Positions 2,338-56,251 of a stretch of 64,000 nt of DNA are shown here, one piece after another. Each line of letters opens with the position of its first letter. The first letter of the stretch is position 1. The stretch lies in the NCBI RefSeq assembly GCF_000025625.1, contig NC_013922.1:2046001-2110000 (forward strand), given 5' to 3'. A program made the position numbers and the translations under genes. The notes under the pieces were generated by a model. It made no database searches, was not told the origin of the DNA, and saw nothing but the letters and a program-made list of their open reading frames with translations. Source of the stretch: Natrialba magadii ATCC 43099. Lineage in GTDB: Archaea; Halobacteriota; Halobacteria; Halobacteriales; Natrialbaceae.

Positions 2338-2462
2338 CGCGGTATCGTTGGATCGGCTTCCCGAATAAAGGTGCGGATCAGGCACAGGTGGTGATTGATT
2401 GTTGTTGGTCGGACGTTCGTGTTGATATATCCCCTGACTTTATATTGCGACTCCCTCTGGAC

Positions 2463-2478
2463 GGTGGTGTTCAGATAA
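2463..2478 (+). repeat. Left terminal inverted repeat of the IS6 remnant
   Basis: The sequence GGTGGTGTTCAGATAA matches the reverse complement of 3248-3263 at 15 of 16 positions. It lies about 40 bp ahead of the transposase start codon, the normal spacing for IS6 elements. Confidence 0.85.
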
Positions 2479-2516
2479 GATTCAAGGAGTGAGGTGTGGC
2501 GTTTTCTGAGTGACTC

Positions 2517-3255: not shown

Positions 3256-3263
3256 ACACGACC
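3248..3263 (-). repeat. Right terminal inverted repeat of the IS6 remnant
   Basis: This is the reverse complement of the left end with one mismatch. It overlaps the last codons of the transposase remnant, as is common in compact IS6 elements. Confidence 0.85.
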
Positions 3264-3628
3264 CTCTGACAGGCTGTTTCAATCGTTATTAGAACCGATA
3301 CTGGACGCAATCCGAAAAGCTTGTTCGCATAACCGACTTCAACCGTTGACCGCCGAGTAATCTTGCAGGTTGATGTTACTGAGAAGAAGTAGTCGCGTAT
3401 TTAAGATAGGTGAATAGCTCAACGGTTTGGGCCCCATCGCAATGCGTACATTCTGCAGCCGTCCCCCCTAGAGGGAGCCTCTGGAGAGTACCGACTTTAT
3501 GTAGTTCTATCCGACAACATATGCCAGTGTGCTTTTGAGACACAACTCTACCCATTCTTCCCCAACTTAGTGTTTGCCACAACAGAAATAAATAATCTGA
3601 TGTATGTAATATTGTTTTTGTGTATATG
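3264..3628. other. Intergenic stretch without a supported gene
   Basis: This 365-bp stretch lies between the IS remnant and the AT-rich gene. A minus-strand open frame at 3376-3582 ends in a segment with one CxxC pair (ECTHCDG) and could be the tail of a lost zinc-binding protein. It has no clear promoter or codon bias, so I do not call it a gene. Confidence 0.5.
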
Positions 3629-4603
3629 TTATATTTCCTCTGGACACCATGTTCCAGTACATTCCTCTTCCATTTCTGATTGAGCTACTTTTATAACGTC
3701 CCCCTCAGAATCTGTGAATATTTCATCTTGTTCAATTGTCCCTGTTCCAGTTATTGACACAGATGGTGGGACCCCTACACTTACAGATTCATTAACAGCA
3801 TAACTGTTATACGCATGTGCATATCGCGCAAATACCTCTCGATCTTCTTCATTGTAGTCACCGCTCGGTTCCAACATTAACCCTGCATACCCACCTACTT
3901 TTGGGCCCGAAAATGTTTCGCTTAAGTTCCGTTCTTGACAGTCATAGCTGTCGATTTTTGGCTGGCTCCAGTCATCGTAAGCCTGTTCGTCATTGAACCT
4001 GAACGCCATTGCTCCTTCGGCATCACTTGATTCTGACTCAGTAAATGCTACTTCTCCTCCTGTCAAAATATCATCGTTAACATTTCCTGTGGCAAGACTC
4101 CAATGCGGATTCTCTGCTTTATAAAATAACCCCGCTCCATCTTTGGGCGATGTGCCATAACTGTGATGATCTGGCCCGCACTGTGAGTAATCTGTAGATG
4201 GATGCATAGTAAACTCAAAATTATATGTTATATGAAATTCGACCGTATATATGTGTTCATCGGGCTCTTCAATACCAGTTATACTAAAAACAATCCCACC
4301 AGTAGACGGGTCTTCAATAGAATTTGTATTATTTTCACCTTCCTTTCCCTTTTCGTCTGACTCCTGTCCAAGTTTTCTATTTATCGTTGTAGAACTTGAC
4401 ACGGCATTATATCCATGATTGGCTAGGTACTTTTTCTGCGCCTCAGCACCTTCTTCCATTCGAATTTTACCCGATTCTTTCATTTCTTTCCTAATCATAT
4501 CCACTTTCTTGCTGGATGTGGCAATCACATTCCCAGTGAATCCACCTGCTCCTAATGCAGTCGTTGCTCCTATTGTCTTAAGCAAAGTTCTTCGGTTTGC
4601 CAT
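3629..4603 (-). CDS. Tat-exported protein of unknown function, AT-rich
   Basis: I do not recognise the family. The N-terminus MANRRTLLKTIGATTALGAGG is a twin-arginine signal (RRTLLK, then a hydrophobic stretch), so the protein should be exported folded, or anchored by that helix. The mature part has four well-spaced Cys residues, including a C-terminal CTGTWC, and many aromatic residues suggesting a beta-rich fold. Start: an ATG lies four codons further up (4615), but 4603 gives the usual short Tat n-region. Its base composition is much more AT-rich than the flanking core genes, and it uses ATA and AAA codons freely, which points to horizontal acquisition. TATA-like sequence lies at about 4635-4645. 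Confidence 0.75.
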   Translation of the reverse strand: MANRRTLLKTIGATTALGAGGFTGNVIATSSKKVDMIRKEMKESGKIRMEEGAEAQKKYLANHGYNAVSSSTTINRKLGQESDEKGKEGENNTNSIEDPSTGGIVFSITGIEEPDEHIYTVEFHITYNFEFTMHPSTDYSQCGPDHHSYGTSPKDGAGLFYKAENPHWSLATGNVNDDILTGGEVAFTESESSDAEGAMAFRFNDEQAYDDWSQPKIDSYDCQERNLSETFSGPKVGGYAGLMLEPSGDYNEEDREVFARYAHAYNSYAVNESVSVGVPPSVSITGTGTIEQDEIFTDSEGDVIKVAQSEMEEECTGTWCPEEI

Positions 4604-4816
4604 ATCTATATCCAATAGATATATCTAAGTAATATTAAAACTTACGACACTATAAGAACTGTGTAAAGAATGCATGTGGCCATATTTTATAACTACAAAA
4701 CCCAGCAAATATCGGGTGGCCTTCTGATGCCCTCATTTCTGATATACTCTGTAGTCTATATGATTATAATCTCTAAATATCCACGTGTAAAAATACCCTT
4801 TTGTGGATGTGAATAT

Positions 4817-4999
4817 TCACTTTTTGGTAGTATAACCTAAATATGGCAGAAGTGTTCCTATAGTTATTGCAAGGCCAATAATAATCATAAAGAAAGAGAA
4901 CGTTGGTGGTTCCACGCCGCTTAAATGAGAGTCAATCATTAACAAGCCACCTACTATTGATATATGCAGACCAATAATACTAATGTGGGTTTTGCTCAT
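4817..4999 (-). CDS. Small two-helix membrane protein, AT-rich island
   Basis: This 60-residue protein has two hydrophobic segments, roughly residues 6-22 (IISIVGGLLMI-like) and 35-54 (FFMIIIGLAITIGTLLPYL), joined by a short polar loop, and ends with TTKK. No family is recognised. It is as AT-rich as its neighbour at 3629-4603 and on the same strand, about 210 bp upstream of it, so the two probably arrived together. No function can be assigned. Confidence 0.55.
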   Translation of the reverse strand: MSKTHISIIGLHISIVGGLLMIDSHLSGVEPPTFSFFMIIIGLAITIGTLLPYLGYTTKK

Positions 5000-5309
5000 A
5001 CAGATGCTTTATCGAAGGTTGTCTAAATATTTTGGTTACAATTACTATTGGTTGAATACCTATACTCCCATGTCAAACTACAACATCACTCCGAACAGAA
5101 TTTCTTGTAAAACAAGTCGTAAATCCGAGGGTGTTGATGATTTAACGGGTTATAATGTTCATCAGAGCGCGTACGTTTTGTGAACGTCGCTATTGAAGAC
5201 GGCCTTCGGAGAGTGGAGTGCGTTTCGGAGGTGTTCGTTACAGCAAAGAGGTTGTGCGTGTGTGCTGACACTCATCACTGGATCCAAGTCTCGAGTGGTT
5301 CTCGTATTG
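5000..5309. other. Intergenic stretch, right border of the AT-rich island
   Basis: The first 160 bp continue the AT-rich composition; from about 5165 the composition returns to the genome norm. A plus-strand stretch at 5180-5290 has coding-like codons without a start and may be a gene fragment left at the island border. No complete gene, tRNA or repeat is visible. Confidence 0.45.
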
Positions 5310-6038
5310 CTACAGAAGTAGTTCGACCGTCTCTCGGGCCAGCGCGTTGAACGTTGCCTCACTCGCGACGAGGTCGACGTCGATGCCGAACTCGGCGGCG
5401 GTCTCCCGGGTCGGCTCGCCGATGACACCGACAGTCGCGTCCTCGAGTCCCGCCAGCGCGTCCGCTCGAACGTCGCGCTCGGCGGCCGCCTCGAGGAAGT
5501 GTTCGACGGTCAGCGACGAGGTAAAGCAGGCGGCGTCGAGGTCGCCAGCGGCGGCGCGTTCGGCTGACTCACCGCTCCCCTCGGGTCTGACGAGTTGGTA
5601 GAGCACCGTCTCGTGGACGTACGCGCCGGCAGCCTCGAATCCGTCGAGCAGGACGGGACTGCCGTGGTCGCTGCGGGCGACTTCGACCCGCGCGCCGTCG
5701 AGGGCCGACTCGAGTTCCGCGACGAGGCCGCTCGAGGTGTACTCGTCGGGCACGATGTCGACCTCGTAGCCCGCGGCGCGGATCGCGTCGGCGGTCTTCG
5801 GGCCGATGGCACAGACGGTAGCCTCGCCGGGCTCCCAGTCTGTCTCTGCGACGAGTTCGACGCCCGTCTTGCTCGTGAGCACGACGTAGTCCGCGTCCGT
5901 GCGGGGGACGGCGTCCGTTGGGTCGACGGCGAGCATCGGATCCGACACTGCTGTCGCACCAAGCGAGTCGAGGAGTTCGACCGCATCCGCGAGGCGTTCG
6001 TCGTCGGGGCGGAAGACGGCGACGGAGAGGTCGCGCAT
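5310..6038 (-). CDS. hemD: Uroporphyrinogen-III synthase
   Basis: The 242-residue product makes uroporphyrinogen III by closing hydroxymethylbilane with inversion of ring D, the branch point to haem, sirohaem and cobamides. HemD sequences are weakly conserved; visible features are the N-terminal VAVFRPDDER, VVLTSKTGVE, the alternating two-lobe pattern, AACFTSSLTVEHFLEAA and VGVIGEPTRETAAEFG. The start lies 3 bp downstream of the cobA stop, so it is the last gene of a hemC-cobA-hemD operon. That context makes the call secure despite the poor motif conservation. Confidence 0.92.
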   Translation of the reverse strand: MRDLSVAVFRPDDERLADAVELLDSLGATAVSDPMLAVDPTDAVPRTDADYVVLTSKTGVELVAETDWEPGEATVCAIGPKTADAIRAAGYEVDIVPDEYTSSGLVAELESALDGARVEVARSDHGSPVLLDGFEAAGAYVHETVLYQLVRPEGSGESAERAAAGDLDAACFTSSLTVEHFLEAAAERDVRADALAGLEDATVGVIGEPTRETAAEFGIDVDLVASEATFNALARETVELLL

Positions 6039-6893: not shown

Positions 6894-8030
6894 TTATTTC
6901 CCCTCCGGCTGGTCCTCCTGACTCGGCTCGGACTCGCTTTCGGTTTCCTTGCGCGCGTTTTCGATTAGTTCTGCAGCGCCGCGGTCGGCGAGGTCCTGTG
7001 CGAACTCGCGGGCGGCCGTCGCGTGGTTCTCGACGGGGAGATCCCGCGTCGCCGCGACCGACTCCTCGCCGTCGCGGTTGAAGACGCTGACCGTTGCGTG
7101 GACGTACTCGCCCTGGACGATGGCGTAGATGCCAATTGGGGCGATACAGCCGCCGCCGAGTTCGGCCAGCACGGTGCGCTCGACGGTGGTCTCGACACGA
7201 CTTCGCGGATGATCGATTGCGGACTGGATCTCCGTGGCGGTCTCGCCGTCCGTTGCGGTGACGGCGAGTGCACCCTGTCCCGGTGCTGGGACGAAGGTTC
7301 CGGTGGGAAGCTCCTGTGCGTCGACGTAGTGGTCGAGACCGCTGCGCACCAGTCCTGCCTGTGCGAGGACGATGGCGTCGTACTCCGTTTCGACCTCACG
7401 GCCGAGTGCCTGCTTTTCGAGTTCCGAGAGCCCGTCGAACCACTCGTCGACAGTCTGGTCGAACTCGGGCTCGAAGTCCTCCTCACCAGTATTCCCTTTC
7501 CGCTCTTTGTCGGCCTCGCTGCGCTCTTCGTGTTCGGCCTGCAGCGACGGCGCGAGGAGCTTCTCGAGTCGGGTGTCGACGTTTCCGCGCAGTGGCTCGA
7601 CGGTGAGGTCGGGCCGCTCAGAGAGCAGTTGCGCGCGCCGGCGGAGACTCGAAGTACCGACAGTTGCGCCCTGTGGAAGCTCCTCGAGTGTGGCTCCCTC
7701 GGGCGTGATCAGGTAGTCACCGGGACGGCCGCGTTCCGGCACGGCCGCGGTGACGAGGTCGTCGGGCTGTTCGGTCGGCATGTCCTTCATCGAGTGAATC
7801 GCGCCGTCGAGGTCGCCCTCGAGTACGCGTTCGTCGAGTTCACGGACGAAGGCGCCGGTCTTGCCGAGGCGGTGGATGAGTTCGTCTCGGATCTGGTCGC
7901 CTGTGGTCTCAACGGTGACGAGTTCGACCTCGTACCGACGGTTTTCCAGGGCCTCCTTGACGAGTGTGGCCTGCCGCCGGGCGAGAGTGGATCCCCGTGT
8001 CGCCAGTCGCAACGTCCCACGCGTTCTCAT
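6894..8030 (-). CDS. hemC: Hydroxymethylbilane synthase (porphobilinogen deaminase)
   Basis: This 378-residue enzyme polymerises four porphobilinogens into hydroxymethylbilane. The N-terminus reads LRLATRGSTLARRQA, followed by the substrate-binding KDMPTEQPD and GTSSLRRRAQLL. The dipyrromethane cofactor attaches to the Cys of LGGGCIAPIG. A highly charged insertion (about residues 165-215, EERSEADKERKG) sits after ...RGNVDTRLEKLL; similar insertions occur in haloarchaeal HemC, and it makes the protein longer than the bacterial 310. The frame extends 77 codons upstream, but ATG 8030 gives the canonical N-terminus and has a TATA box about 27 bp ahead. It is the first gene of the hemC-cobA-hemD operon. 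Confidence 0.95.
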   Translation of the reverse strand: MRTRGTLRLATRGSTLARRQATLVKEALENRRYEVELVTVETTGDQIRDELIHRLGKTGAFVRELDERVLEGDLDGAIHSMKDMPTEQPDDLVTAAVPERGRPGDYLITPEGATLEELPQGATVGTSSLRRRAQLLSERPDLTVEPLRGNVDTRLEKLLAPSLQAEHEERSEADKERKGNTGEEDFEPEFDQTVDEWFDGLSELEKQALGREVETEYDAIVLAQAGLVRSGLDHYVDAQELPTGTFVPAPGQGALAVTATDGETATEIQSAIDHPRSRVETTVERTVLAELGGGCIAPIGIYAIVQGEYVHATVSVFNRDGEESVAATRDLPVENHATAAREFAQDLADRGAAELIENARKETESESEPSQEDQPEGK

Positions 8031-8052
8031 AGTAGGTAATCCTCGCCTGAGG

Positions 8053-8061
8053 TATGAAAAG
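8053..8061 (-). promoter_or_regulatory. TATA box of the hemC operon
   Basis: On the minus strand the sequence reads TTTTCATA about 25-31 bp above the hemC ATG, the spacing expected for a leaderless transcript. Confidence 0.6.
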
Positions 8062-8171
8062 CGCACGCTTGTCGGCCGACTCACCGCGAACCCGTGCTCG
8101 GTGTACTCTCGTGCTTCCGAAGTGGGGTTCATCTGCCGGCGATCGGCTGTGGTCGGCCACTCCACCGTCAT

Positions 8172-8192
8172 GTATGTTATCAATAGACATAC
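8172..8192. promoter_or_regulatory. Inverted repeat in the hemC-haemoglobin intergenic region
   Basis: GTATGT and ACATAC arms are separated by 9 bp (tatcaatag). It lies about 30 bp upstream of the haemoglobin TATA box, so it is placed to act as an activator or repressor site for that gene. The regulator is unknown. Confidence 0.4.
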
Positions 8193-8219
8193 TTTTTGAC
8201 TAATATATTCGGGACGGGG

Positions 8220-8226
8220 TTTATTC
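8220..8226 (+). promoter_or_regulatory. TATA box of the truncated haemoglobin gene
   Basis: TTTATTC is centred 28 bp above ATG 8251, so the mRNA is likely leaderless. Confidence 0.65.
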
Positions 8227-8250
8227 ACTTCACCAGAGAACCCGTACACG

Positions 8251-8616
8251 ATGACAGACACGCTGTACGACCGACTCGGCGGAGCGGACGCGATCGGTGC
8301 CGTCGTCGACGAGTTCTACGACCGCGTCGTGGCCGACGAGCAGGTCGCACACTTCTTCGACGACGTGGACATGCAGAAACAGCGCACCCACCAGGCCCAG
8401 TTCATCAGTTCGGTCGCGGGCGGGCCAGTCGAGTACACCGGCGGCGAGATGGAAGCCGTTCACGACGGGATGGGAATCGACCACGACGAGTTTGACGCCA
8501 TCGCGACGCACCTCAACGACGCGCTACTCGAGTTCGACGTCGACGACGACGACCGCGAGGCTGTTCTCGAGGCAATCGAGAGCTACCGGGAGCCGATCGT
8601 CGTCGCAGCGGACTGA
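8251..8616 (+). CDS. Truncated haemoglobin, group I-like
   Basis: The 121-residue product has the 2-on-2 globin pattern: LYDRLGGADAIGAVVDEFYDRVVAD at the start, HFFDDVDMQKQRTHQAQFISSVAGG (helix E region) and VHDGMGIDHDEFDAIATHLNDAL with the proximal-side helices. The His of AVHDGMG is the likely proximal haem ligand. Such globins bind O2 or NO and are often linked to nitrosative or oxygen stress. It is divergent from hemC, so a haem protein lies back to back with the haem pathway. The inverted repeat at 8172-8192 could control it. Confidence 0.9.
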   Translation: MTDTLYDRLGGADAIGAVVDEFYDRVVADEQVAHFFDDVDMQKQRTHQAQFISSVAGGPVEYTGGEMEAVHDGMGIDHDEFDAIATHLNDALLEFDVDDDDREAVLEAIESYREPIVVAAD

Positions 8617-17086: not shown

Positions 17087-17240
17087 TGGTCTGGCTCATC
17101 CGAGCAGTTCCGTCGGTAAAGGCGTTTTCAGTGGCGATGATGGGCATCGCTGGCAGCTTCGCGGCTAACCCGCACGCCAGTTGAACCCATTCTAGCGATA
17201 TTAGGTCTTGGGTGAGGCTAGTAATCCATTATGGACAATG

Positions 17241-34145: not shown

Positions 34146-35579
34146 TCAGTCGTCGGCGTTATACACGTTCGTAATCTCGAAGCGAGCACCGCCGTCGTCG
34201 CTCTCTGTTACGGTTACGTCCCAGCCGTGGGCGTCGACGATATCCTGGACGATTCGAAGGCCGAGTCCGGTTCCGTCGGGGTTGGTCGTGTAGCCGGATT
34301 CGAAGACGGCTTCGCGTTTGTCCGGCGGAATTCCTGGCCCGTCATCCGCGACGAAGAACCCGTCCTCGAGTAGTCCGACCGTGATCGTCACCGTCTCCGT
34401 TCCGTCGTCGTTGTGAATGCCATGTTCGAGACTGTTCCCGAGAAGGTTCTCGAACAGCTGTATCAGCCGATTCTCGTCCGCCTGCACTGTCACATCGTCC
34501 GCGATCTGAACGTCGAGTGTTGCTTTCACGTGGGGTGGTGGATTCCAGGCATATTCGACGGCTTCCGTGATCGGGACAGCACTGCTGTCGTCGATGACGT
34601 TGCCAGCCCGAGCGAGCACCAGCAGGTCGTCAATCAGCGTCTTCATGCGCTGGTGGGCGGCTGCGACGTCGTCGAGAAACGAAACGTCGTCCGCTTCAGC
34701 TCGTGCCAGTTCGAGGTAGCCCATTGCGGCGGCGAGCGGCCCGCGGAGATCGTGTGAGACGGTTCCCGTAAACTCCGAGAGCCGCTCGTTCTGTCTGCGC
34801 AGTCGCTGCTCGGCGAGCTTTCGGCGGGTGATCTCGTGCTGGAACCCGACGAAGTACGGCGTCTCGCTGTTGTCGACCGGAGCGATCGTCACCTCGTTCC
34901 AGAACATCGTCCCGTCGCGCCGGTAGTTCCGAACTTCGGTCGTAATCGGTTCCCGCGCTTCGATTGCCGCTCGCATTCGGTCGACAGGCTCCTGTTTGGT
35001 CCGCTCGCCCTGCAGAAACCGGCAGTTTCGACCGAGAACCTCTGCTTCGGGATACCCCGTCAACTCGTAAAATTTCTCGTTGGCGTAGACGATCGGATTA
35101 TCCGGCAGACTCGAGTCGGTTAGTACGATCCCAACCGGCGCTTCGTCCATCGCCGCGTTCTTGCGCTGAAGCTCCTCGACGGTGCGGGAACGCTCGACTG
35201 CGTTTTTAATTTTCGACGCGAGCAGATCGTACTGCGCCGTCCCGGGTTGCTTCCGAAGATAACCGGTTATCCCGTGCTGGATCGCCTCGCTTGCTATCTC
35301 TTCCGAGCCAGCGCCGGTGAAGAGAATTACCGGTATCGTGGAGTCCTCTTCACGGATCGCATCGTGCAGTTCGAGCCCCGACAGCCCTGGCATCTCGTAG
35401 TCGCAGACGACACAGTCGAACTCTCCCGTTCGAACTCGGTCGAGCGCTGCCGTCGGATCCGTTTCCGTCTCGACGACGATGGAACCGTCGAGTCGCTCGA
35501 GAACGGTCTCCGTGAGCGCGAGAACGACGCTATCGTCGTCGACACAGAGCACACGAATCTTGTCTGTCGCCGCCGTCAT
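34146..35579 (-). CDS. Receiver-LOV-histidine kinase, candidate blue-light sensor
   Basis: 477 residues. Receiver 7-125: acidic DDD 14-16, phospho-Asp 60 (CDYEMPG), Lys 110. PAS/LOV 140-252: GRNCRFLQ at 183-190 with the photoactive Cys 186, and the flavin contacts Asn 218 (NYRRDG), Asn 228 (FWNEV) and Gln 247 (GFQHEIT), so every key LOV residue is there. HisKA phospho-His 276 (SHDLRGPL). HATPase with ENLLGNSLEHG at 377-387, DDGPGIP and GTGLGL. ATG 35579 is preferred over an unsupported longer start. It is on the same strand as two other regulators and about 95 bp from the next. Whether FMN is bound is untested. Confidence 0.88.
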   Translation of the reverse strand: MTAATDKIRVLCVDDDSVVLALTETVLERLDGSIVVETETDPTAALDRVRTGEFDCVVCDYEMPGLSGLELHDAIREEDSTIPVILFTGAGSEEIASEAIQHGITGYLRKQPGTAQYDLLASKIKNAVERSRTVEELQRKNAAMDEAPVGIVLTDSSLPDNPIVYANEKFYELTGYPEAEVLGRNCRFLQGERTKQEPVDRMRAAIEAREPITTEVRNYRRDGTMFWNEVTIAPVDNSETPYFVGFQHEITRRKLAEQRLRRQNERLSEFTGTVSHDLRGPLAAAMGYLELARAEADDVSFLDDVAAAHQRMKTLIDDLLVLARAGNVIDDSSAVPITEAVEYAWNPPPHVKATLDVQIADDVTVQADENRLIQLFENLLGNSLEHGIHNDDGTETVTITVGLLEDGFFVADDGPGIPPDKREAVFESGYTTNPDGTGLGLRIVQDIVDAHGWDVTVTESDDGGARFEITNVYNADD

Positions 35580-35675
35580 ACTGTTCGTACGTGACTCTGG
35601 GGCTTGAAACTTCGAGCAGCAGTCTCGGGCCAGGACACCGACATACCGAGACGACACAACCTCACTCAGCACATA

Positions 35676-36977
35676 TCAGTCAGTAGCGTTTAATTCGACG
35701 CGTAGCACCGGCTCCTCCTCGTCAGCTGTCGGGTGAACGACCGCTGCCTCGCCACCGTAGCGCTCGAGAAACGTCCGCACCAGAACCAACTCGATGTCGC
35801 TCCCCTCGTTCAGTTCGTCTACCGTTGCTTCGAGCACCGACGTCTCGAGTGCGGGGCCGAGGAGTTCGAACCCGGCGCTGATCGCACTCCCGCCCTCACT
35901 CCCACTCCCACTCCCACTTCCACTCTCCCCGCCGGTATCGGCGAGACGCTGGTCGCCCTCGATGTCTTTGCTCTCCGAATTCGGCCCCCGTTCGAGACGG
36001 CCGTCCGTCTCACGCTCCGCTCGGAACGGCCGCAGGACAACCCGCTGTTGTGACACGCCACTGCGTTCGACGAGCGTATGCACGACCGCTCGGACGACAA
36101 TTTCAAGAAATCGGTCTGCCAGCACCTGAACGTCCGCTTCCGGTGTCGGATCACACTCGAACTCCACGTTGTCGTAGCGCGTTTCGAGCCGGTCGACTGC
36201 CATCTCGAGTACCGGCTCCAGCGCGACGGACCTGAGTACCGGATTCGGCGTTTCGATCGCCTGGACCATCGCGCCGATCGAGTCGGTGAGATCGACGATG
36301 TGTTCTCCCGCGTCGACGATCCGTGAGACGGTCCGCTGGGTGTCGGGATCGCTCGGCGAGAGCTCCGCCGCCCAACCCAGGATTACCGCGGCGTCGTCAC
36401 GATACTCGTGGCGGACGTGCCAGTGGAGCAGCGCTAACTCGCGACGCTGGCGCTCGATTTCGGCGCGCTGGCGCTGGCGCTCGATTGCGTAGGCCACGGT
36501 CTGTCCGAGCAGCCGCGGTGTCACGTGCTCTTTCATCAGGAAGTCCTGCGCGCCGCGTTCGACCGCCTGCTGGCCGAGTTCGGTGTCGTCCATCGCAGTC
36601 AGGACGACGACCGGGATTTCGTCGGTGTACCCAAGTACCGAGGTCAGTGTGTCGAGACCACTCGAGTCGGGGAGGTTCAGGTCGAGGAGGATGAGGTCGA
36701 ACGGAGGAGTTGTGGTGGGTTCGGTGTCGGTGTTGATGTCGGCGCCGGCGTCGGTGTCACCATCAGTATCGATATCAGGATCAGCTTCAGTGCCGGACTC
36801 GATTACATCCCTGGCTGCTGCCAGCGTTTCGACGTGCTCGACGGACAGCGACTCGAGTGGTGTATCCGTCAGCGTCGCGATCTGCTGGAGCATCGTCCGA
36901 TACAGCCGGGCCTGAATGTCATCGTCCTCGACGAGCAGGATCGATCGGTCGGCTGGTGGTGGGTCGGAGACTGTCAT
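35676..36977 (-). CDS. Receiver protein with degenerate histidine-kinase-like C-terminus
   Basis: 433 residues. The receiver domain (12-165) has EDDD at 17-20, the phospho-Asp 99 in LLDLNLPD and Lys 149, but between the second helix and third strand it carries a Thr/Asp-rich insertion (about residues 63-92). After a coiled coil, RHEYRDDAAVILGWA near 190 resembles an H-box. The remaining 230 residues have no NxxxN or GxG ATP-binding boxes, and a Gly/Ser repeat interrupts them, so autokinase activity is doubtful. Its ATG overlaps the preceding hxlR-type gene's stop by 4 bp (ATGA), so the two are translationally coupled. Confidence 0.8.
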   Translation of the reverse strand: MTVSDPPPADRSILLVEDDDIQARLYRTMLQQIATLTDTPLESLSVEHVETLAAARDVIESGTEADPDIDTDGDTDAGADINTDTEPTTTPPFDLILLDLNLPDSSGLDTLTSVLGYTDEIPVVVLTAMDDTELGQQAVERGAQDFLMKEHVTPRLLGQTVAYAIERQRQRAEIERQRRELALLHWHVRHEYRDDAAVILGWAAELSPSDPDTQRTVSRIVDAGEHIVDLTDSIGAMVQAIETPNPVLRSVALEPVLEMAVDRLETRYDNVEFECDPTPEADVQVLADRFLEIVVRAVVHTLVERSGVSQQRVVLRPFRAERETDGRLERGPNSESKDIEGDQRLADTGGESGSGSGSGSEGGSAISAGFELLGPALETSVLEATVDELNEGSDIELVLVRTFLERYGGEAAVVHPTADEEEPVLRVELNATD

Positions 36978-38047
36978 TCGTTCCCATCCCCGTCACTGTC
37001 GTCGTGGGTTCGGTTGTGATCGCGGTCTTTCTCAGCCGCCCGATCTCGTTTGGAGTTGCGGTCGCGTTTTCGCTCTCGGTCTCGGTTCCGTTTTTGTGCT
37101 TGTGCTCGTTCTCGTTCTTGATTCGCCTGTCCCCGCTCCCGCGCTTCGTATTCACGCCGCTTTGCTCGACCCGACGCATCCGACTCCGCTCCGTTTCCCC
37201 GTCTCAGCCGCCGCCACGGCGCTCTCGCGTCGGCTGTCCGCTCTCGTTCCTGCTCGAGTGCCGTCAGTTCGTCCGCAGCCCGCTGATAGGGCTCCGTCTC
37301 TGAGACCGTCGGCCCGAGGTGGCGCTCGACGAACGCCAGCCGATGGCGGCGAGCACGAATATCCCGGCCAATCGGTGACTCCTTCGGAAGCCGTGTGAGC
37401 TGTTCGACGGTGTCGATCAACTCGGCTTTGGAGAGCGGATCTCGAACTAACAGATCTGCCGAGATCGAGACGTCCTCCGGCGAGATGTCTGCCGACGTGA
37501 TGATCGCGACCGGCGTTCGCTGCCCGGCCGTCTCGAGTGCGGCTGCGACCGCGGCCCCGTCGAGTGTCGGCAGATCGCGAGCGAGGACTGCCACGTCGAC
37601 TGACTCGTCGAGGGAGCGGAGTGCTGTCTGACCGTCGGGGACTGTCAGTACGTCGTAGTCGGTTTGCAACCACAGTGCATAGAGCTCTCGCAGGCGCGGA
37701 TCGTCTTCGGCGAGGAGGACTGTCGGCACACCACGTTCGGTTGCGTACGTCGCATCCCACTCTGTGAGTGCTTCGATGAGCTGGTACAGCTCTCGCCCGG
37801 CCCCGGTTAGTTCGTACTCGACGCGCCGAGGCTGTTGTTGCACGACGTCGCGGGAAACGACGCCGTGATCGCGCAGTTCGTCCAGGTTCTCCGACAGCAC
37901 CTTCCCCGAGATACCCGTGAGTTCGCGTTTCAGATCGCCGAAGCTGAGCCGGTCGTTGGTCGCGAGGGCAACGATCAGCCGGGGTTTCCACTTGGTGCCG
38001 AGGATCGACAATGCGGTCGACTCTGCCGGGGTCGGTGGGTGGCTCAT
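36974..38047 (-). CDS. HxlR-type DNA-binding protein fused to a pseudo-receiver
   Basis: 357 residues. The N-terminus (1-105) is an HxlR winged helix: LGTKWKPRLIVALA, LSFGDLKRELTGISGKVLSENLDEL, and the wing RRVEYELTGAGREL. Residues 108-225 are a receiver fold with EDD at 114-116. The usual phospho-Asp position is Ala 156 (VLARDLP) and the conserved Lys is Arg (LVRDPL), so it should not be phosphorylated normally. The C-terminal 95 residues are Arg/Glu/Lys/Asp-rich. The gene is divergent from the polysaccharide pair, with the palindrome 38172-38187 between them. Upstream ATG-like extension to 38287 is not supported. Confidence 0.82.
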   Translation of the reverse strand: MSHPPTPAESTALSILGTKWKPRLIVALATNDRLSFGDLKRELTGISGKVLSENLDELRDHGVVSRDVVQQQPRRVEYELTGAGRELYQLIEALTEWDATYATERGVPTVLLAEDDPRLRELYALWLQTDYDVLTVPDGQTALRSLDESVDVAVLARDLPTLDGAAVAAALETAGQRTPVAIITSADISPEDVSISADLLVRDPLSKAELIDTVEQLTRLPKESPIGRDIRARRHRLAFVERHLGPTVSETEPYQRAADELTALEQERERTADARAPWRRLRRGNGAESDASGRAKRREYEARERGQANQERERAQAQKRNRDRERKRDRNSKRDRAAEKDRDHNRTHDDSDGDGNE

Positions 38048-38132
38048 GGGTCGTCGGTGTGGGTAGCGATCGCGAGGTGCGTTGCAGTTCGTCTGCAGAC
38101 CGGGCCAGTCACTGTTCGCTGTGCCCGCCAGC

Positions 38133-38143
38133 GATGATAAACC
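38133..38143 (-). promoter_or_regulatory. Candidate TATA box of the HxlR-receiver operon
   Basis: On the minus strand GGTTTATCATC lies about 90 bp above the ATG. This would give a leader of roughly 60 nt, unlike the leaderless genes elsewhere. Confidence 0.4.
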
Positions 38144-38171
38144 GACGGACCGTTCGGAACGGAAAACCGGA

Positions 38172-38187
38172 GTTACCTCGAGGTAAC
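38172..38187. promoter_or_regulatory. Perfect 16-bp palindrome, candidate operator
   Basis: GTTACCTCGAGGTAAC is fully symmetric, with CCGG on both outer flanks. It sits about 60 bp upstream of the deacetylase ATG and about 30 bp upstream of the HxlR operon's TATA, so one site could serve both directions. HxlR dimers bind such symmetric sites. A related sequence (GTTACCTGCAGGTAGC) is at 21102-21117. Confidence 0.55.
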
Positions 38188-38247
38188 CAACCGGGAGTAC
38201 GCACAGGTCGCTGACAGTACTGGCTACCTTGACTCCCAGTTCATAGT

Positions 38248-39693
38248 ATGAGCTCACTTCCGTCCACTTGTCCTGTCTGTGGTTCACACGAACTCACCGC
38301 AGAGCAAATCGTCGAACACGACTGCGGTCACGTCGCGCCCGTAGACGACTTTGCGGACGGCTGTGAGAAGTGTGACGGACAGGTTTCCGTGGACGAGCTC
38401 GCACAGCTTCAGACCGTCGGCCGGTGTCTCGAGTGCGACGCACGTGCCACCGACGACTTCGACCTCAACCTGGACGTCGCGCCACCGCTCCCGACGGTGA
38501 CGTTTCCGACGCTCCCCTCTCGGGAGGACAACCTGAGCTGGCTGCCCGCGCGTTACGTTCCCGAGTCGCGACTGGCCCGGCAACTGCTGAGTTCGGCGCT
38601 CGTCGTGATGGTGCTCCTGGCCGGGATCACGGGGGCGATATCGGTGATGCCGATGCTCGAGAGCGAGCCGGCGACGGTGGCTGCGGGCGAACCGGAGTGG
38701 GAAGAGTACGACTCCATCGTGCTCTTCAGAAACGACGATATCCAGGCCTGGTACAATCAGGACGAGCTCCGGGCCGTGAATCAGGTGTTCATCGACGAGG
38801 AGGTGCCGGTAACGCTGGGGATTATCCCGGATACGAACGGTGAGGCTCCGCTGACCGACGACCCCGACCTCTGTACGTATCTGCAGTCGCTCGAGACGGA
38901 GTATCCCGGCCAGTTCGAGATGGCACTGCACGGCTACACTCACGAACCAGTGACGGACTTCTATGGTGCGAGCGAGTTCGGCGACCTCCCGGCTGACGAG
39001 CAACGCGACCGGCTCGCGGCCGGTGAGGAACTGCTCAACGAGTGTGTCAACTCGCCATCCTCGACGTTCGTCCCACCGATGAACACCTACGACGAGACGA
39101 CGGTGTCGGTCCTCGAGGATGCGAACTACACCACCGTCTCCGGAGGTTCGTGGTTCACCGATGCGTACTTCGATGCGAACGAAACCGTCTTCGAAGACGG
39201 TGACGGTGACCTCGTCCACGTCCCCGAAACCCGGGCGTTCGAAAACTGGACTGCCTACGAGGAACAGCTCCTCGAGGAGGACAGTAACGAATCCGACGAC
39301 ACCAACGAATCCGACGACACCGCCGTCCCGTTCGAGGACCTCGAGACGCTCACCGACTCGTTCGACGACGCCCACGCAGCGAACGACGTCCACGTCGTGA
39401 TGTTCCACTACCAGTACTTCACGACCGACGAGCGCGTCGAACAACTCGAGTTACTCATCCAGCACATGAAGGATGAAGATGCGGGCTTCCTCACTATCGA
39501 GCAGTTCGGGCTCGGACTCGAGATGGGGGCGGTCGAGCAGACGGACGACGGCTGGCGCGTTCTCGAGCCGGCTCACGCCGCGATTGCGGCGGAACAGGCT
39601 GAGATGTCTGACGAGGGCAGCGATGACGAGCCGAGAGAGGACAGTGGAGTCGAACAGGCGCTTGCCGACGTACAACAGCGGGTGAGCCCATGA
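38248..39693 (+). CDS. Membrane-anchored polysaccharide-deacetylase-like protein with zinc ribbon
   Basis: 481 residues. The N-terminus carries zinc-binding pairs CPVCGSHE, DCGH, CEKCDG and CLECDA within the first 65 residues, presumably cytoplasmic. One transmembrane helix follows around 112-136. The outer domain is a NodB/DUF2334-like polysaccharide deacetylase: FRNDDIQ near 160 (metal-binding Asp), LHGYTHEP near 228 (HxxxH), FVPPMNTYDETT, and VVMFHYQYF. It would de-acetylate a polymer outside the cell. Its stop overlaps the GT2 start by 4 bp, so they are coupled. An acidic ESDDTNESDDT repeat lies near residue 350. Confidence 0.85.
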   Translation: MSSLPSTCPVCGSHELTAEQIVEHDCGHVAPVDDFADGCEKCDGQVSVDELAQLQTVGRCLECDARATDDFDLNLDVAPPLPTVTFPTLPSREDNLSWLPARYVPESRLARQLLSSALVVMVLLAGITGAISVMPMLESEPATVAAGEPEWEEYDSIVLFRNDDIQAWYNQDELRAVNQVFIDEEVPVTLGIIPDTNGEAPLTDDPDLCTYLQSLETEYPGQFEMALHGYTHEPVTDFYGASEFGDLPADEQRDRLAAGEELLNECVNSPSSTFVPPMNTYDETTVSVLEDANYTTVSGGSWFTDAYFDANETVFEDGDGDLVHVPETRAFENWTAYEEQLLEEDSNESDDTNESDDTAVPFEDLETLTDSFDDAHAANDVHVVMFHYQYFTTDERVEQLELLIQHMKDEDAGFLTIEQFGLGLEMGAVEQTDDGWRVLEPAHAAIAAEQAEMSDEGSDDEPREDSGVEQALADVQQRVSP

Positions 39694-41339
39694 ACCCAAT
39701 CATGGTCGCGCCGGTCGTCGTCGGCCGCGAGCGTGCACGGTTTGTGGTCCGCCAGCTCCAGTCGGTCAAGTGGCGCTCGGTCGCGCTGTTTCTCTCCGCA
39801 CTGGTGCCGTTCTGGCTCTTGATCAACGTCATGACACCAGAGACGCTGTACGCCATTGGGCTCCTTGGTGTCCTGTTACTGGCCTATCTCGGCTGGTCGT
39901 ACTACGTCGTCGAACACGCCCCACGGTTCCGGGCCGTCTTCGGAACGCGAGGGCTGGCGGTTGCCGTCGGTAGCTACCTCGGACTCATCGTCTGGCTCGG
40001 CTGGCTCACCCCGTCGCCGCTCGCGCTCGTCCACCTCGGCGCCGTCGTGTTGATCTTCGTCTACTACTGGTTCATCGCGTTCATCGCGCTCTTCCACGAC
40101 CAGATCGGCCGTTCGAAGTACGTCCCGAACCCACCCTACCCGCAGATTACCGTCCTCATTCCGGCCTACAACGAGGAGGGCTACGTCGGCCGAACGATCC
40201 AGTCCCTGCTCGACGCCAACTACCCCGCAGACGCACTCGAGATCATCGCAGTCGACGACGGCAGCACCGACGACACGCTCGCTGAGGCGAGCGCCTTCGC
40301 CGCCGCGAGCGAGCAGGTCTCAGTCGTCAGCAAGGCAAACGGCGGCAAGTACTCCGCGCTGAACTACGGCCTCCTGTTTGCCGCCGGCGACATCATCGTC
40401 ACCGTCGACGCCGACAGTATCGTCGACCGAGATGCCCTGAAACACATCGTCGCCCCGTTCGCCGCCGACGACGACATCGGCGCCGTCGCGAGTAACGTCA
40501 CCATCTGGAACCGCGACTCGCTCATCACCCGCTGCCAGCAACTCGAGTACACCATCGGTGTGAACATCTACCGGCGCGCGCTCGATTACTTCGGCATCGT
40601 GATGGTCGTCCCCGGTTGTCTGGGCGCGTACCGCCGCGAGGTGCTCTCGGAGGTGTTCGCCTACGATCCCGACACGCTCACGGAGGATTTCGACGTGACG
40701 ATGAAGGTGCTTCGGGCTGGCTACCGCGTCTCCGTGAGCGATGCGCGGGTCTACACCGAAGCACCGGCGACCTGGGGCGATCTCTACCGCCAGCGCCTGC
40801 GCTGGTACCGCGGCAACTACATGACGATTATCAAGCACTGGTCGGTCGTGACGGACTCGTCGTACGGCTACTTGAACCGGATCGCGCTTCCGTTCCGGCT
40901 GGTCGAGATGTTCTTCCTGCCGTTTGCGAGTTTCGTCGTGCTTGCGTACATCCTCTGGCTGATCGCTGCCGGCCACGTCCTCACCGTGTTCGCGGTGTTT
41001 GTCTTCTTCACGAGCATCGTCTTCCTGATCGCGGCGCTCGGTATCCAGATCGAAGGCGAGGACTGGCGGCTGCTCGTCTACGCACCGCTGCTCGTTGTCG
41101 GCTACAAGCAGTTCCACGACGCGCTCAACGTCAAGTGTCTGTTCGACGTGCTCACGAGCCCAGAACTCGGCTGGACGCGCGCAGCGCGCATCGAGCAGGT
41201 TGTGGAGGCTCCGGACGCAGGTGCAATACCAGAGCCAGCTGTAAGTGCATCGCCGTCTCCAGCCCCAACTCCTGAGGCAGGACCACCAACAGAAACGGAG
41301 ACAGAGAGCGAGACCGTTGCCGACACGGACTCGAAGTAA
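39690..41339 (+). CDS. Processive GT2 glycosyltransferase (polysaccharide synthase type)
   Basis: 549 residues. Four N-terminal helices (about 28-138) precede the GT-A domain: ITVLIPAYNEEGYVG, the UDP-sugar site VDDGSTDD near 188, VDADS near 238, the catalytic TEDFD near 330 and QRLRWYRG near 366 (the QxxRW motif of processive enzymes). Three or four helices at the C-terminus complete the channel, followed by a Pro/Glu/Thr tail. This matches hyaluronan, cellulose and poly-N-acetylglucosamine synthases, which polymerise and export in one step. Pairing with a deacetylase suggests an N-acetylated sugar polymer, as in the bacterial PgaC/PgaB pair; the exact sugar is unknown. Confidence 0.9.
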   Translation: MNPIMVAPVVVGRERARFVVRQLQSVKWRSVALFLSALVPFWLLINVMTPETLYAIGLLGVLLLAYLGWSYYVVEHAPRFRAVFGTRGLAVAVGSYLGLIVWLGWLTPSPLALVHLGAVVLIFVYYWFIAFIALFHDQIGRSKYVPNPPYPQITVLIPAYNEEGYVGRTIQSLLDANYPADALEIIAVDDGSTDDTLAEASAFAAASEQVSVVSKANGGKYSALNYGLLFAAGDIIVTVDADSIVDRDALKHIVAPFAADDDIGAVASNVTIWNRDSLITRCQQLEYTIGVNIYRRALDYFGIVMVVPGCLGAYRREVLSEVFAYDPDTLTEDFDVTMKVLRAGYRVSVSDARVYTEAPATWGDLYRQRLRWYRGNYMTIIKHWSVVTDSSYGYLNRIALPFRLVEMFFLPFASFVVLAYILWLIAAGHVLTVFAVFVFFTSIVFLIAALGIQIEGEDWRLLVYAPLLVVGYKQFHDALNVKCLFDVLTSPELGWTRAARIEQVVEAPDAGAIPEPAVSASPSPAPTPEAGPPTETETESETVADTDSK

Positions 41340-53682: not shown

Positions 53683-54138
53683 TTAACAATCAAATGTTCT
53701 CCAGAACCAAAGGCCTGGCCCGCTATCTTCTCGTGCTTCTCCAATGTCCACGCGGACTTGAGCGCACTCATAATCATAGTCGGTGAGATCGAGTGTTATT
53801 CCTTCCTCTCGTGATTGATCGGCCCGCCACGCTTGAACGATATATGATCCCGGCTGTGTTGGGTAGCCTTCGAAATGTACTCCACTCCATCTGTCGTCTC
53901 CTAACTCAGACGTTGTGTCCTCTGCTGATGGGATTCCAATTGAGTTCTCGTGGACAATCTCATCATGTTCAGAAATATCTATGTGTAGTGTATACGAGTC
54001 GTCCTCATAATTGATAGCCTGTAATCGATCTATGCGTGTATCTCTTGTCGGTTCGCTCCGATCAAAACATCCTGCAAGCGCTACCGGAATTAACGCAGTC
54101 GACCAGCGGAGAACTCGACGGCGTGAGTGTGGGGACAT
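53683..54138 (-). CDS. Tat-dependent lipoprotein of unknown function
   Basis: 151 residues beginning MSPHSRRRVLRWSTALIPVALAGC: a twin-arginine motif, a hydrophobic stretch and a lipobox ending at Cys 24. It should be exported folded and lipid-anchored on the outside. The mature domain has YTLHIDISEHDEIVHENSI, GVHFEGYPTQPGSYIVQAWRADQ and YECAQVRVDIG and looks like a small beta-sandwich with two Cys at the end. ATG 54138 is selected over an ATG seven codons upstream. The region is lower in GC than the flanking core genes. Confidence 0.75.
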   Translation of the reverse strand: MSPHSRRRVLRWSTALIPVALAGCFDRSEPTRDTRIDRLQAINYEDDSYTLHIDISEHDEIVHENSIGIPSAEDTTSELGDDRWSGVHFEGYPTQPGSYIVQAWRADQSREEGITLDLTDYDYECAQVRVDIGEAREDSGPGLWFWRTFDC

Positions 54139-54229
54139 ACGCGAGATCAATCGACCCAAAACATATCTGTTTCTAAATGACTTTGCCCCGGAATACCGGG
54201 GATGATCTGATAATCACACTATCTGTACT

Positions 54230-54425
54230 TACCGTTCGATCTTCCGCGTTGATCGCTTCTCAGTCCGTGCAACATTCGCGCTGTGAGTTCAGCACGTCTC
54301 GCTCAATCTGTCCAGTGGCTGGCAGAAAGTGCGTGCAAGATACAGAGGATTAATGCAGCAAACCAAGATTGTTTCCTCCAAGAGGTTTGTGCTGAATCAC
54401 CCGTTCAGTAGAACTGCATACTGAC
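54230..54425. repeat. Noncoding module copy B
   Basis: About 195 bp with five shared blocks: CGTTCGATCTTC, TGTG-like CATTCGCGCTGTGAGTTCAGCAC (54269-54294 region), AGTGGCTGG, the core ACAGAGGATTAATGCAGCA (54342-54360), and a final TGAATCACCCGTTCAGTAG. Copy C has the same order and spacing. Confidence 0.68.
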
Positions 54426-54529
54426 GGGGGATTCCCTGCCAGTTACGGTAGAGTGTCTTGTTACAGCGGGATACAAGCTGAAAGGTCCACCAGAAAACTC
54501 ATTGAAGTGTTGGCGGTAGTAGTGATACA

Positions 54530-54649
54530 ATGATGGAAACTCTCGCAATGGCCGTTTACACGATCATGGCCCTCCTCATAATCGGGATTCCTACGTGGTA
54601 TATTTGGAGGTGGAACATCCAACAATACCGAGAAAAAGACAATACATGA
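54530..54649 (+). CDS. 39-residue single-helix membrane protein
   Basis: From ATG 54530: MMETLAMAVYTIMALLIIGI then PTWYIWRWNIQQYREKDNT. One transmembrane helix precedes a Trp-rich juxtamembrane turn and a charged tail. The sequence lies exactly between module copies B and C. No family is recognised. Two ATG codons in tandem make the start uncertain by one residue. Confidence 0.5.
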   Translation: MMETLAMAVYTIMALLIIGIPTWYIWRWNIQQYREKDNT

Positions 54650-54746
54650 CCCCTGTAGCACCCAATTCATAATTGATGGCGAGTGCTGTACTGACTACTG
54701 CTTTAGTTGAAGCCTGTGATGCTCACTGCTCACAAAATGTCCTGTA

Positions 54747-54935
54747 CTGAACGTTCGATCTTCGTCGCTCATCGGTCCTTAGTCTGTGCCACATTCGCGC
54801 TGTGAATTCAGCACGTCTCGTTCTATTTATCAAGTGGCTGGTAGAGATCCCGTGCACCATTTAGAGGGTTAGTTCAGCATATGCTCCCATTGGAATCAGG
54901 TCAAAAGTGGTGATTCATCCGTCACTACACGTACG
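54747..54935. repeat. Noncoding module copy C
   Basis: It follows copy B block by block: CGTTCGATCTTC near 54748, CACATTCGCGCTGTGAATTCAGCAC (54790-54814), AAGTGGCTGG, the core TTAGAGGGTTAGTTCAGCA (54861-54879), and TGATTCATCCGTCACTACACGTAC. B and C are about 70% alike by eye. Confidence 0.68.
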
Positions 54936-55004
54936 TTGTTGATCGGAGATATTCTCCGAAGTCCAGCGGCAAATCTTTATCAACAACCCTGATTTATCTA
55001 CCTG

Positions 55005-55190
55005 ATGCCCAGAGACCGGAGACAGCGCAGCGCGACCGCTGGGGGAGCTGTAGCGGTGTACGCGGGGGCAATCGTGATGTTTGCGCTGGGTTTCCAGATG
55101 GATGGCGTACTTGCGTATCTGGTTGCGATCGCTGGTGTGTTATCATTCTTTGGGGCCACCCTCCTGCTGGTTTCCGTCTATATCGACTGA
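55005..55190 (+). CDS. 61-residue two-helix membrane protein
   Basis: MPRDRRQRSATAGGAVAVYA then a hydrophobic helix, the short polar loop GFQMDG, and a second helix ending LLLVSVYID. TATA-like TTTATCAAC at 54976-54984 gives leaderless spacing. It lies between module copies C and D. The helix-loop-helix form resembles holin-like or small stress proteins, but there is no specific motif. Confidence 0.62.
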   Translation: MPRDRRQRSATAGGAVAVYAGAIVMFALGFQMDGVLAYLVAIAGVLSFFGATLLLVSVYID

Positions 55191-55252
55191 GAAGAGATCG
55201 GGTGGTCAGCGCCCGCGACATAAGGGTTCTGTATATCGATTCTTCTGTCAGC

Positions 55253-55266
55253 AGTGACCGGTCACT
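55253..55266. promoter_or_regulatory. 14-bp perfect palindrome
   Basis: AGTGACCGGTCACT lies 63 bp past the 61-residue gene and just before module copy D. Its role is unknown. Confidence 0.4.
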
Positions 55267-55315
55267 ACAGAGGTTGTACTGACCGAGTCGATCCACCTGT
55301 GACGTGACGCTCGCG

Positions 55316-55365
55316 CTGTGCCACATTCGCGCTCTGTATTCAGCACAATCGCTGAATCCTCTCTC
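55316..55365. repeat. Noncoding module copy D (5' part)
   Basis: CTGTGCCACATTCGCGCTCTG and TTCAGCAC match the left block of B and C; the segment after it contains AATCCTCTCTC, the reverse complement of the AGAGGATT core. Copy D thus seems rearranged. The rest of the 55191-55519 gap shows nothing further. Confidence 0.55.
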
Positions 55366-55519
55366 AATGAGGATCTCAACAGGTCCATTTTGTTTTGTTC
55401 TGCTCTGTTCTATTCCACGCTGTGCTATAGTAGCCACTGCAAGTCACTGCACACCTGATCGCCAGCCTGCTCGGCGATCAGTGTGTAACTAGTTGCAGTT
55501 GTCACTATATCTTGTCCTG

Positions 55520-56251
55520 CTAGGCCAGACTGAGCAGCAACACGATCACGAGCGGGACACCGACTGCGACGCCGGCAGCCGCTCGCGACAGGTCGGCGTC
55601 TTGCTGGACACCGCCGGTAAGCAGGGCCCACTGCCAGATGGTGGTCGCGACGGTGGCGAGGACGAGCACCGGTTCGACGGACGCGAGCGCCACTTCGATC
55701 ACGTCCGGCGCCTGTTCGAACTGGGTAATAGTCACGTCCGAGAGCGCAACTGTGATCGCGAGCAGACCGGCCACCAGTCGTGCGAACTCTGGAACCGCTG
55801 CCCAGCCGGCCAGTGCGAACGTGCCGCCGAGCGAGGGCGATCCGTTCGCGAGTCTGCCGGCGGCGAACAGGACGAGGCCGCCAATGACCCACATGAGGAA
55901 CGGAAGGATGGCTGCGTAACCCACGTAGTCGGTCACAGCGTCGGCAAATAGCTCGCTCCCGTCACGTTCGATGGTTTCTGGCTCGTCACAGTTGCTTGCA
56001 TCGTGCATGCCGCTGGTGTGACCGTCACACACCCACTCTGGCGGCCGATTCGGGTTGTCGACGGTGACTGTCCCCTCAATCGTCCCGCCGAGAACTGATG
56101 CGACGAAATAGACCGAGAGGACGAGCGCGAGCGAGAACGTAACAACGATACCGATCGCGAGCGGGAGCGTTGTAGCCGGGTCGTGTTCCTCGAAGAATCT
56201 CGACGGACTCCGGAGGAACAGGTGGAGGGAGTGCAGCAGGGACCGTTCCAT
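55520..56251 (-). CDS. Yip1-type integral membrane protein
   Basis: 243 residues. MERSLLHSLHLFLRSPSRFFEEHDP is followed by five hydrophobic segments (about 27-55, 110-131, 140-160, 168-186, 200-240). The first loop, 70 residues long, is outside or inside as a hydrophilic domain with two Cys (EWVCDGHTSGMHDASNCDEP). The arrangement matches the Yip1/DUF family in archaea, membrane proteins with no clear function. Confidence 0.72.
   Translation of the reverse strand: MERSLLHSLHLFLRSPSRFFEEHDPATTLPLAIGIVVTFSLALVLSVYFVASVLGGTIEGTVTVDNPNRPPEWVCDGHTSGMHDASNCDEPETIERDGSELFADAVTDYVGYAAILPFLMWVIGGLVLFAAGRLANGSPSLGGTFALAGWAAVPEFARLVAGLLAITVALSDVTITQFEQAPDVIEVALASVEPVLVLATVATTIWQWALLTGGVQQDADLSRAAAGVAVGVPLVIVLLLSLA

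Follow-up and report, generated by a model that had tools for sequence, protein, structure and literature searches.

Poly-N-acetylglucosamine (PNAG) is the product of the PgaC/PgaB and IcaA/IcaB pairs, in which a processive glycosyltransferase of family 2 (GT2) and a NodB-like deacetylase are encoded as an operon. Haloarchaeal response regulators that combine an HxlR domain with a receiver (REC) domain, the HxlR-REC(-HalX) architecture, have already been catalogued (Galperin et al. 2018, PMC5847659), and the passages of that census on the architecture give no target, operator or partner for it. Among sensors, LOV photochemistry has been established for one archaeal LOV domain (PMC12202551). 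Little is known of how archaea decide on making a surface polymer. Here, a locus is described from Natrialba magadii ATCC 43099, within a stretch of 64,000 nucleotides (NC_013922.1, positions 2,046,001 to 2,110,000 of the forward strand; hereafter the window), in which a deacetylase-GT2 pair with the operon arrangement of the PNAG pairs is divergent from an HxlR-REC regulator, a partner gene (RR2) and a LOV kinase. The genes are:

34146-35579, minus strand: LOV kinase, REC-LOV-HisKA-HATPase (Pfam and PDB sequence search; likely ATG at 35579, longest frame to 35672)
35676-36977, minus strand: RR2 partner, REC plus a DHp/ATPase-like C-terminus (ATPase domain undetectable in the window, intact in genome G095)
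36974-38047, minus strand: HxlR winged helix, receiver and C-terminal helical region, the proposed DNA-binding regulator (likely ATG at 38047)
38248-39693, plus strand: deacetylase with a Cys/His zinc-ribbon-like N-terminus, a probable membrane helix and a DUF2334/NodB-like domain with the metal-ligand motif NDD...HGxTH
39690-41339, plus strand: processive-type GT2 synthase, closest curated family PgaC/IcaA

Upon re-examination on the window, the five open frames all hold in strand and coordinates, with overlaps of 4 nt between the HxlR and RR2 genes and between the deacetylase and GT2 genes. Together with the domain assignments and a palindrome search, this confirms the layout proposed by a first-pass annotation made from the sequence alone, of three minus-strand regulators and a divergent plus-strand pair with one perfect palindrome between them. 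Based on comparison with related genomes, the locus is probably a surface-polymer cassette that includes a dedicated response regulator, predicted to bind the site GGTWACCTCGAGGTWACC before the deacetylase-GT2 promoter, with RR2 as partner and with interchangeable sensors; the comparison establishes the gene linkage, the conservation of the operator, its fixed spacing and its recurrence at other surface genes.

The regulator and the pair occur together well beyond N. magadii. Searches with tblastn over 125 genomes of the family, with regulator orthologues defined at E<1e-90 (next match, 1.7e-39) and deacetylases at E<1e-100, placed the HxlR-REC orthologue in 16 genomes and the deacetylase in 19, the same 19 that have the GT2. 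The pair is present in 14 of the 16 regulator-bearing genomes (Fisher p=1e-12 by genome and 2e-6 by genus, both without correction for shared descent), and this co-occurrence bears out the earlier expectation of a neighbourhood conserved beyond the strain. The regulator and pair are directly divergent in 11 loci, and in G082, G095 and G096 they are set apart by a distinct gene for a PAS/GAF kinase. RR2 adjoins the HxlR-REC gene at all 16 loci, with a LOV kinase at seven. Most of the loci are flanked by ftsJ/tatC on one side and pcn on the other. In G042, G043 and G047, three congeners, ftsJ adjoins pcn and all five genes are gone as a single block; G104 has kept the regulator, RR2 and LOV kinase and only an N-terminal remnant of the deacetylase. 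The named carriers, mostly haloalkaliphiles, are Natrialba hulunbeirensis, N. chahannaoensis, Natrialba sp. SSL1, Natronococcus amylolyticus, two other Natronococcus, Natronorubrum texcoconense, Salinadaptatus halalkaliphilus and Halobiforma nitratireducens.

The second line of evidence is the palindrome, the best-conserved stretch between the divergent genes. Alignment of the divergent intergenic regions revealed three conserved blocks (a GATAAA element, the palindrome and a CAGTACTG-like element), with GATAA present in 12 of 12 aligned regions. In the window these, and a possible repeat, lie at:

38136-38141, minus strand: GATAAA (TTTATC on the minus strand), probable TATA box of the regulator gene, from the aligned intergenic regions
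38171-38188: candidate operator, an 18-bp site around the perfect 16-bp palindrome at 38172-38187, family consensus GGTWACCTCGAGGTWACC
38195-38212: putative degenerate repeat of the operator 24 bp downstream, read by eye
38215-38222, plus strand: CAGTACTG-like conserved element before the deacetylase start, probably part of the core promoter

Clearer second copies of the operator at the same 24-bp spacing occur in G095, G096 and G352. In an intergenic region of this length (197 bp) and composition, about 0.0035 perfect 16-bp palindromes are expected, and the 64-kb window as a whole contains three. The exact site occurs once in the N. magadii genome; with two mismatches allowed there are 15 strand matches versus 8 for a reversed control pattern. 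Across six genera, the 16 palindrome columns are 87.5% identical, compared to a median of 60% for 16-column windows. The distance from the palindrome to the deacetylase start is 59-60 nt and constant in all 11 direct loci (one off by 1 nt), whereas the spacing to the start of the regulator gene ranges over 79 nt. These distances were taken from hand-checked starts, as codon-based gene calling misplaces some of them (e.g., 17244 in G352 versus the in-frame ATG at 17166).

The distribution of the site was followed with a symmetrised search matrix built from one site per genus, with a motif background that excluded the regions holding true sites. In G082, G095 and G096, where the regulator is displaced by 3.7 kb, the site remains at the pair (p=0.0036, 0.0012 and 0.0012, respectively) and the matrix scan found none upstream of the displaced regulators. 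Autoregulation as the sole role of the palindrome is disfavoured, as the site follows the deacetylase when the two are separated. By the same scan, the site was found at none of seven deacetylase promoters in genomes that lack a regulator orthologue. Two genomes of a class-wide sample, G135 and G352, have a regulator orthologue and lack the pair, and in both the site adjoins the regulator. G352 belongs to another family; its regulator gene and a polysaccharide flippase/sulfatase/glycosyltransferase family 4 cluster are divergent, with two sites 24 bp apart in between. That the site stays with the deacetylase and is absent without a regulator orthologue supports the regulator as the binder and surface-polymer genes as its targets. 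The first-pass proposal that the palindrome is the regulator's operator is supported by its conservation, its fixed spacing and its absence where no regulator orthologue is present.

The same annotation had proposed that light or redox state sets polymer synthesis through the palindrome. If light were in control, the LOV kinase would phosphorylate the regulators, which would then switch the polymer genes, and several features favour such a scheme. The kinase has the hallmarks by which a LOV photoreceptor kinase is recognised from its sequence (a LOV core with the photoactive Cys, HisKA and HATPase), its best solved-structure matches are blue-light LOV kinases (YF1, 4gcz, 1e-50; PDB sequence search), and its REC, His and ATPase motifs are intact. 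It lies beside RR2 and is conserved in four Natrialba genomes and three others, and the photoactive Cys, in GRNCRFLQ, is kept in all seven orthologues as NCRFLQ (NCRLLQ in one); the photochemistry itself has an archaeal precedent (PMC12202551). The kinase is, however, missing from nine of the 16 loci, which have retained the regulator, RR2 and mostly the pair and have either no LOV kinase next to the regulator or a PAS/GAF kinase in its place. Further, it is exactly in the Natrialba clade that Asp and Lys are gone from the receiver and that RR2 has no detectable ATPase domain.

The latter point follows from the domain structure of the regulators. The window regulator consists of an HxlR winged helix (PF01638, 77 bits) and then a receiver (PF00072, 42 bits). 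At the phospho-acceptor position of the receiver, 11 of the 16 orthologues, that of Natronococcus amylolyticus among them, have Asp and G104 has Asn; the four Natrialba share Ala at this position and also have Asp in place of the conserved Lys. RR2 of G095 has a clear HATPase domain (75 bits), whereas in the window RR2, a receiver with a degenerate kinase-like C-terminus, Pfam detected no ATPase domain. With these receiver residues lost and no ATPase domain detected in RR2, a conventional phosphorelay ending at the DNA binder appears to be interrupted in Natrialba. Judged from these residues, the regulators outside Natrialba have the look of a normal phospho-switch, and those of Natrialba the look of a degenerate one. 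The case for light control is weak: it is not borne out as a general feature and is doubtful as an account of the locus, light being at most an optional input of one lineage. In Natrialba light could possibly act, but solely along a path that bypasses canonical phosphorylation of the DNA binder at Asp. A third domain, HalX, was considered for the regulator and rejected, as PF08663 gave no match at E up to 0.001 for the window protein and none at E up to 1 for four relatives; the census passages note that HalX is often missed by Pfam (PMC5847659). An AlphaFold model of the regulator was poor (predicted local distance difference test, pLDDT, 58; receiver below 50).

As to the enzymes, the gene families point to a polymer built from aminosugars. 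The GT2 carries the motifs DDGSTD, DADS, TEDFD and QRLRW, and the set typical of processive enzymes (D,D, D(A)D, TED and QxxRW) is invariant in 10 orthologues. Its best curated family is PgaC_IcaA (193 bits), followed by NodC, and its solved relatives include hyaluronan, cellulose and chitin synthases. The deacetylase matches DUF2334 (82 bits) and, marginally, Polysacc_deac_1 (23.6 versus a cut-off of 23.1); its residues N162, D163, D164, H228, H232 and H387 are invariant, with the NDD motif, HGxTH and the later His found in 12 of 12 sequences. A low-confidence model of the protein (pLDDT 57) gave seven matches at E<=0.001, all deacetylases or members of the CE4 family (E of 4e-5 to 2e-4). At the regulator locus of five genomes (G107, G021, G104, G034 and G082) there is a GlmS gene (708 bits), mostly with GlmU-like genes, and a UDP-GlcNAc 2-epimerase lies beside the G107 pair. 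GlmS is next to pcn in seven of the 125 genomes, five of which have the regulator (p=3e-4); in the window, no glm genes were found near the pair. The glmU-glmS genes of the five loci suggest an aminosugar polymer, and the best guess from the enzyme families is a product of the N-acetylglucosamine type.

A role of the pair in glycolipid synthesis or in the decoration of a glycoprotein, in place of a secreted polymer, is unlikely. The best curated match of the deacetylase is a GlcNAc-phosphatidylglycerol deacetylase, weakly (27 bits versus a cut-off of 280), and the locus has no dedicated exporter. The QxxRW and TEDFD motifs of the GT2 and its best matches (PgaC/IcaA, NodC, hyaluronan and cellulose synthases), however, belong to enzymes that polymerise and extrude without a separate exporter. 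Gene linkage, protein families and operator conservation together uphold the first-pass view that this is a surface-polysaccharide locus equipped with an HxlR-receiver regulator of its own. The window pair is, we assume from the order of the gene numbers, very probably Nmag_2045/Nmag_2046. In the N. magadii genome paper, Nmag_2045 is a polysaccharide deacetylase and Nmag_2046 a glycosyltransferase (PMC3403918).

Beyond the pair, the site recurs before other surface genes. With one mismatch allowed, GGTWACCTYRAGGTWACC has 21 sites in 20 of the 125 family genomes, compared to one site for the reversed control; nine of the 21 are at the deacetylase and six others are intergenic. Three of the regulator-bearing genomes (G016, G104 and G107) carry a site at a great distance from the regulator, 60 nt ahead of an orthologous GT2 gene; in G104 and G107 this gene is the first of a cluster that also encodes a polysaccharide deacetylase and additional GT2s. 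These operator copies lie at:

L209:7860-7937 (G104): distal GT2 operator copy
L210:8068-8145 (G107): distal GT2 operator copy
L212:1501-1578 (G016): distal GT2 operator copy

In G097, a perfect 18-bp operator (L208:7473-7490) is located 59 nt before the gene for a secreted beta-helix protein of 2471 residues, which adjoins a paralogous HxlR-REC gene (7673-8521) and an RR2-like gene with an intact HATPase. A spacing of 59 nt was also found before a lipoprotein-like gene in G084 and, for one site in G352, before an open reading frame without a Pfam family. All six genomes with intergenic distal sites have some HxlR-REC gene, as do 46 of the 125 (p=0.002, not independent). The evidence that the site tracks the regulator is strong at the pair and suggestive beyond it.

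Several observations weigh against the reading of the locus as a polymer cassette under its own response regulator. The regulator gene and the pair share descent at one locus, and part of the conservation is common ancestry. G016 has no site at the regulator itself, and the window receiver has Ala for its phospho-acceptor Asp and Asp for its conserved Lys. GlmS is found at pcn also without the pair (G094, G109 and G104), and full PgaC/IcaA membership of the GT2 is rejected, at 193 bits versus the TIGR03937 equivalog cut-off of 422. Among the distal sites, that of G038 lies 134 nt, rather than 59-60 nt, before a gene for a secreted NosD-like protein, and six of the 21 family-wide sites (G009, G036, G079, G090, G111 and G123) are in genes or before no clear start, and are taken as chance occurrences or as unexplained. 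The last of these, in the incomplete genome G123, is a perfect 18-bp site (L230:1501-1518) with no start codon at the usual distance, in a genome where no HxlR-REC was detected.

The palindrome might serve as operator for a different factor that is unlinked to the locus, or be a promoter element of a general kind, with the regulator a neighbour by descent only. Such an origin would fit the co-inheritance of neighbours at one syntenic position and the lack of a site upstream of the regulator in G016 and where regulator and pair are separated. It is quite improbable in view of the seven promoters that lack both site and regulator orthologue, of G352 and G135, where the site adjoins the regulator with no deacetylase present, of the confinement of any site copy to 20 of the 125 genomes, and of the HxlR-REC genes in every genome with an intergenic distal site. 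Redox sensing by the HxlR protein is rejected, the HxlR/DUF24 thiol sensors having a redox-active cysteine and the translation of the window protein containing none.

In the cassette with its own regulator, for which binding, the sign of regulation, the chemistry and identity of the polymer and the flow of signal are predictions, the GT2 would polymerise and probably extrude a beta-linked aminosugar polymer, most likely based on N-acetylglucosamine (PNAG- or chitin-like), from which the membrane-anchored deacetylase would strip some of the acetyl groups. Binding of GGTWACCTCGAGGTWACC, just upstream of the deacetylase-GT2 promoter, would be by the HxlR-receiver protein, probably in dimeric form, which would set transcription from that promoter with RR2 as its obligate signalling partner. 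The upstream sensors appear to be interchangeable: Natrialba and a few others have a LOV kinase, and elsewhere there are PAS/GAF kinases or none. Control in most orthologues is probably through phosphorylation of the receiver, while in Natrialba the regulator would have to work without phosphorylation of the usual Asp, for instance constitutively or by touching RR2. Relative to the putative deacetylase core promoter, in which there is no clear TATA box, the site is upstream, and activation is somewhat more likely than repression.

Several further observations concern related loci and the rest of the window. In two other families, a FIST-domain gene and a PAS kinase occur near the regulator (L190:4999-8126 and L191:2-2940), hinting at an older sensory module. 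Pairs without a nearby regulator and without an operator are found in L192 (G293) and L193 (G284), each followed by a gene of the UDP-glucose/GDP-mannose dehydrogenase family (Pfam checked in G293). At L199:9420-10985 (G090), a deacetylase minus its first 47 residues abuts a kinase-like remnant, with the regulator and promoter missing, as a result of either a deletion or an assembly error. Within the window, G+C is 0.50 at 2001-6000 and 0.54 at 54001-56000, versus about 0.63, with few confident genes; the former stretch includes a frame of 328 residues with a Tat-like signal (3629-4615). A second PCNA-like frame, 65% identical, is located on the fourth contig of the genome (G000:C4:11-748), possibly the phiCh1 virus replicon of N. 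magadii.

According to the first-pass annotation, no described haloarchaeal system has this set of parts. This stands for the set as a whole; of its parts, the HxlR-REC(-HalX) architecture is catalogued, as the census passages show (PMC5847659), and the pair was very probably annotated (PMC3403918). Open-access literature on haloarchaeal HxlR proteins, LOV domains, exopolysaccharides, PNAG and response regulators gave no operator or target for an HxlR-receiver regulator, which is weak evidence of novelty. A bolder reading, tentative and rather unlikely to hold in full, is of a family of HxlR-receiver regulators, each with a REC-kinase-like partner, that would read one palindrome 59-60 nt before gene starts and so govern a cell-surface regulon; its contents might be the aminosugar polymer, other glycosyltransferase clusters and giant beta-helix proteins. 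Natrialba would have been rewired to a LOV kinase, with pseudo-receiver signalling free of phosphorylation and blue-light control of a PNAG-like archaeal polymer. The locus offers an 18-bp site, a fixed promoter geometry and named targets in several genera, and there are natural knock-outs in the congeners without the cassette and in G104, which has the regulator and only a remnant of the deacetylase. The decay of the receiver and the partner's kinase domain together in one lineage, with operator and targets kept, allows a direct test of phosphorylation-free response regulators.

Compared with the PgaC/PgaB and IcaA/IcaB pairs, the locus is archaeal, its deacetylase is a DUF2334 protein with an N-terminal zinc-ribbon-like segment, its GT2 scores well below the PgaC_IcaA cut-off, and neither PgaA/PgaD nor IcaD/IcaC is encoded in it. 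The HxlR-receiver order is shared with the HxlR-REC(-HalX) regulators as described in the census passages (PMC5847659), and 11 of the 16 orthologues keep the Asp; the differences are that Pfam detects no HalX in the window protein and four relatives and that the receiver is degenerate in Natrialba. A LOV core with the photoactive Cys is common to the window kinase and the known LOV histidine kinases (YtvA/YF1-type and archaeal, PMC12202551), and REC-LOV-kinase layouts are known in archaea, but the output here would be a neighbouring pseudo-receiver regulator. As in the helix-turn-helix-REC regulators of the LtrR type (Methanococcoides LtrK/LtrR), the DNA-binding domain is N-terminal to the receiver and control is by a sensor kinase; in contrast to LtrK/LtrR, the promoter of surface-polymer genes is the predicted output, and the regulator gene invariably has a second, REC-kinase-like gene beside it.

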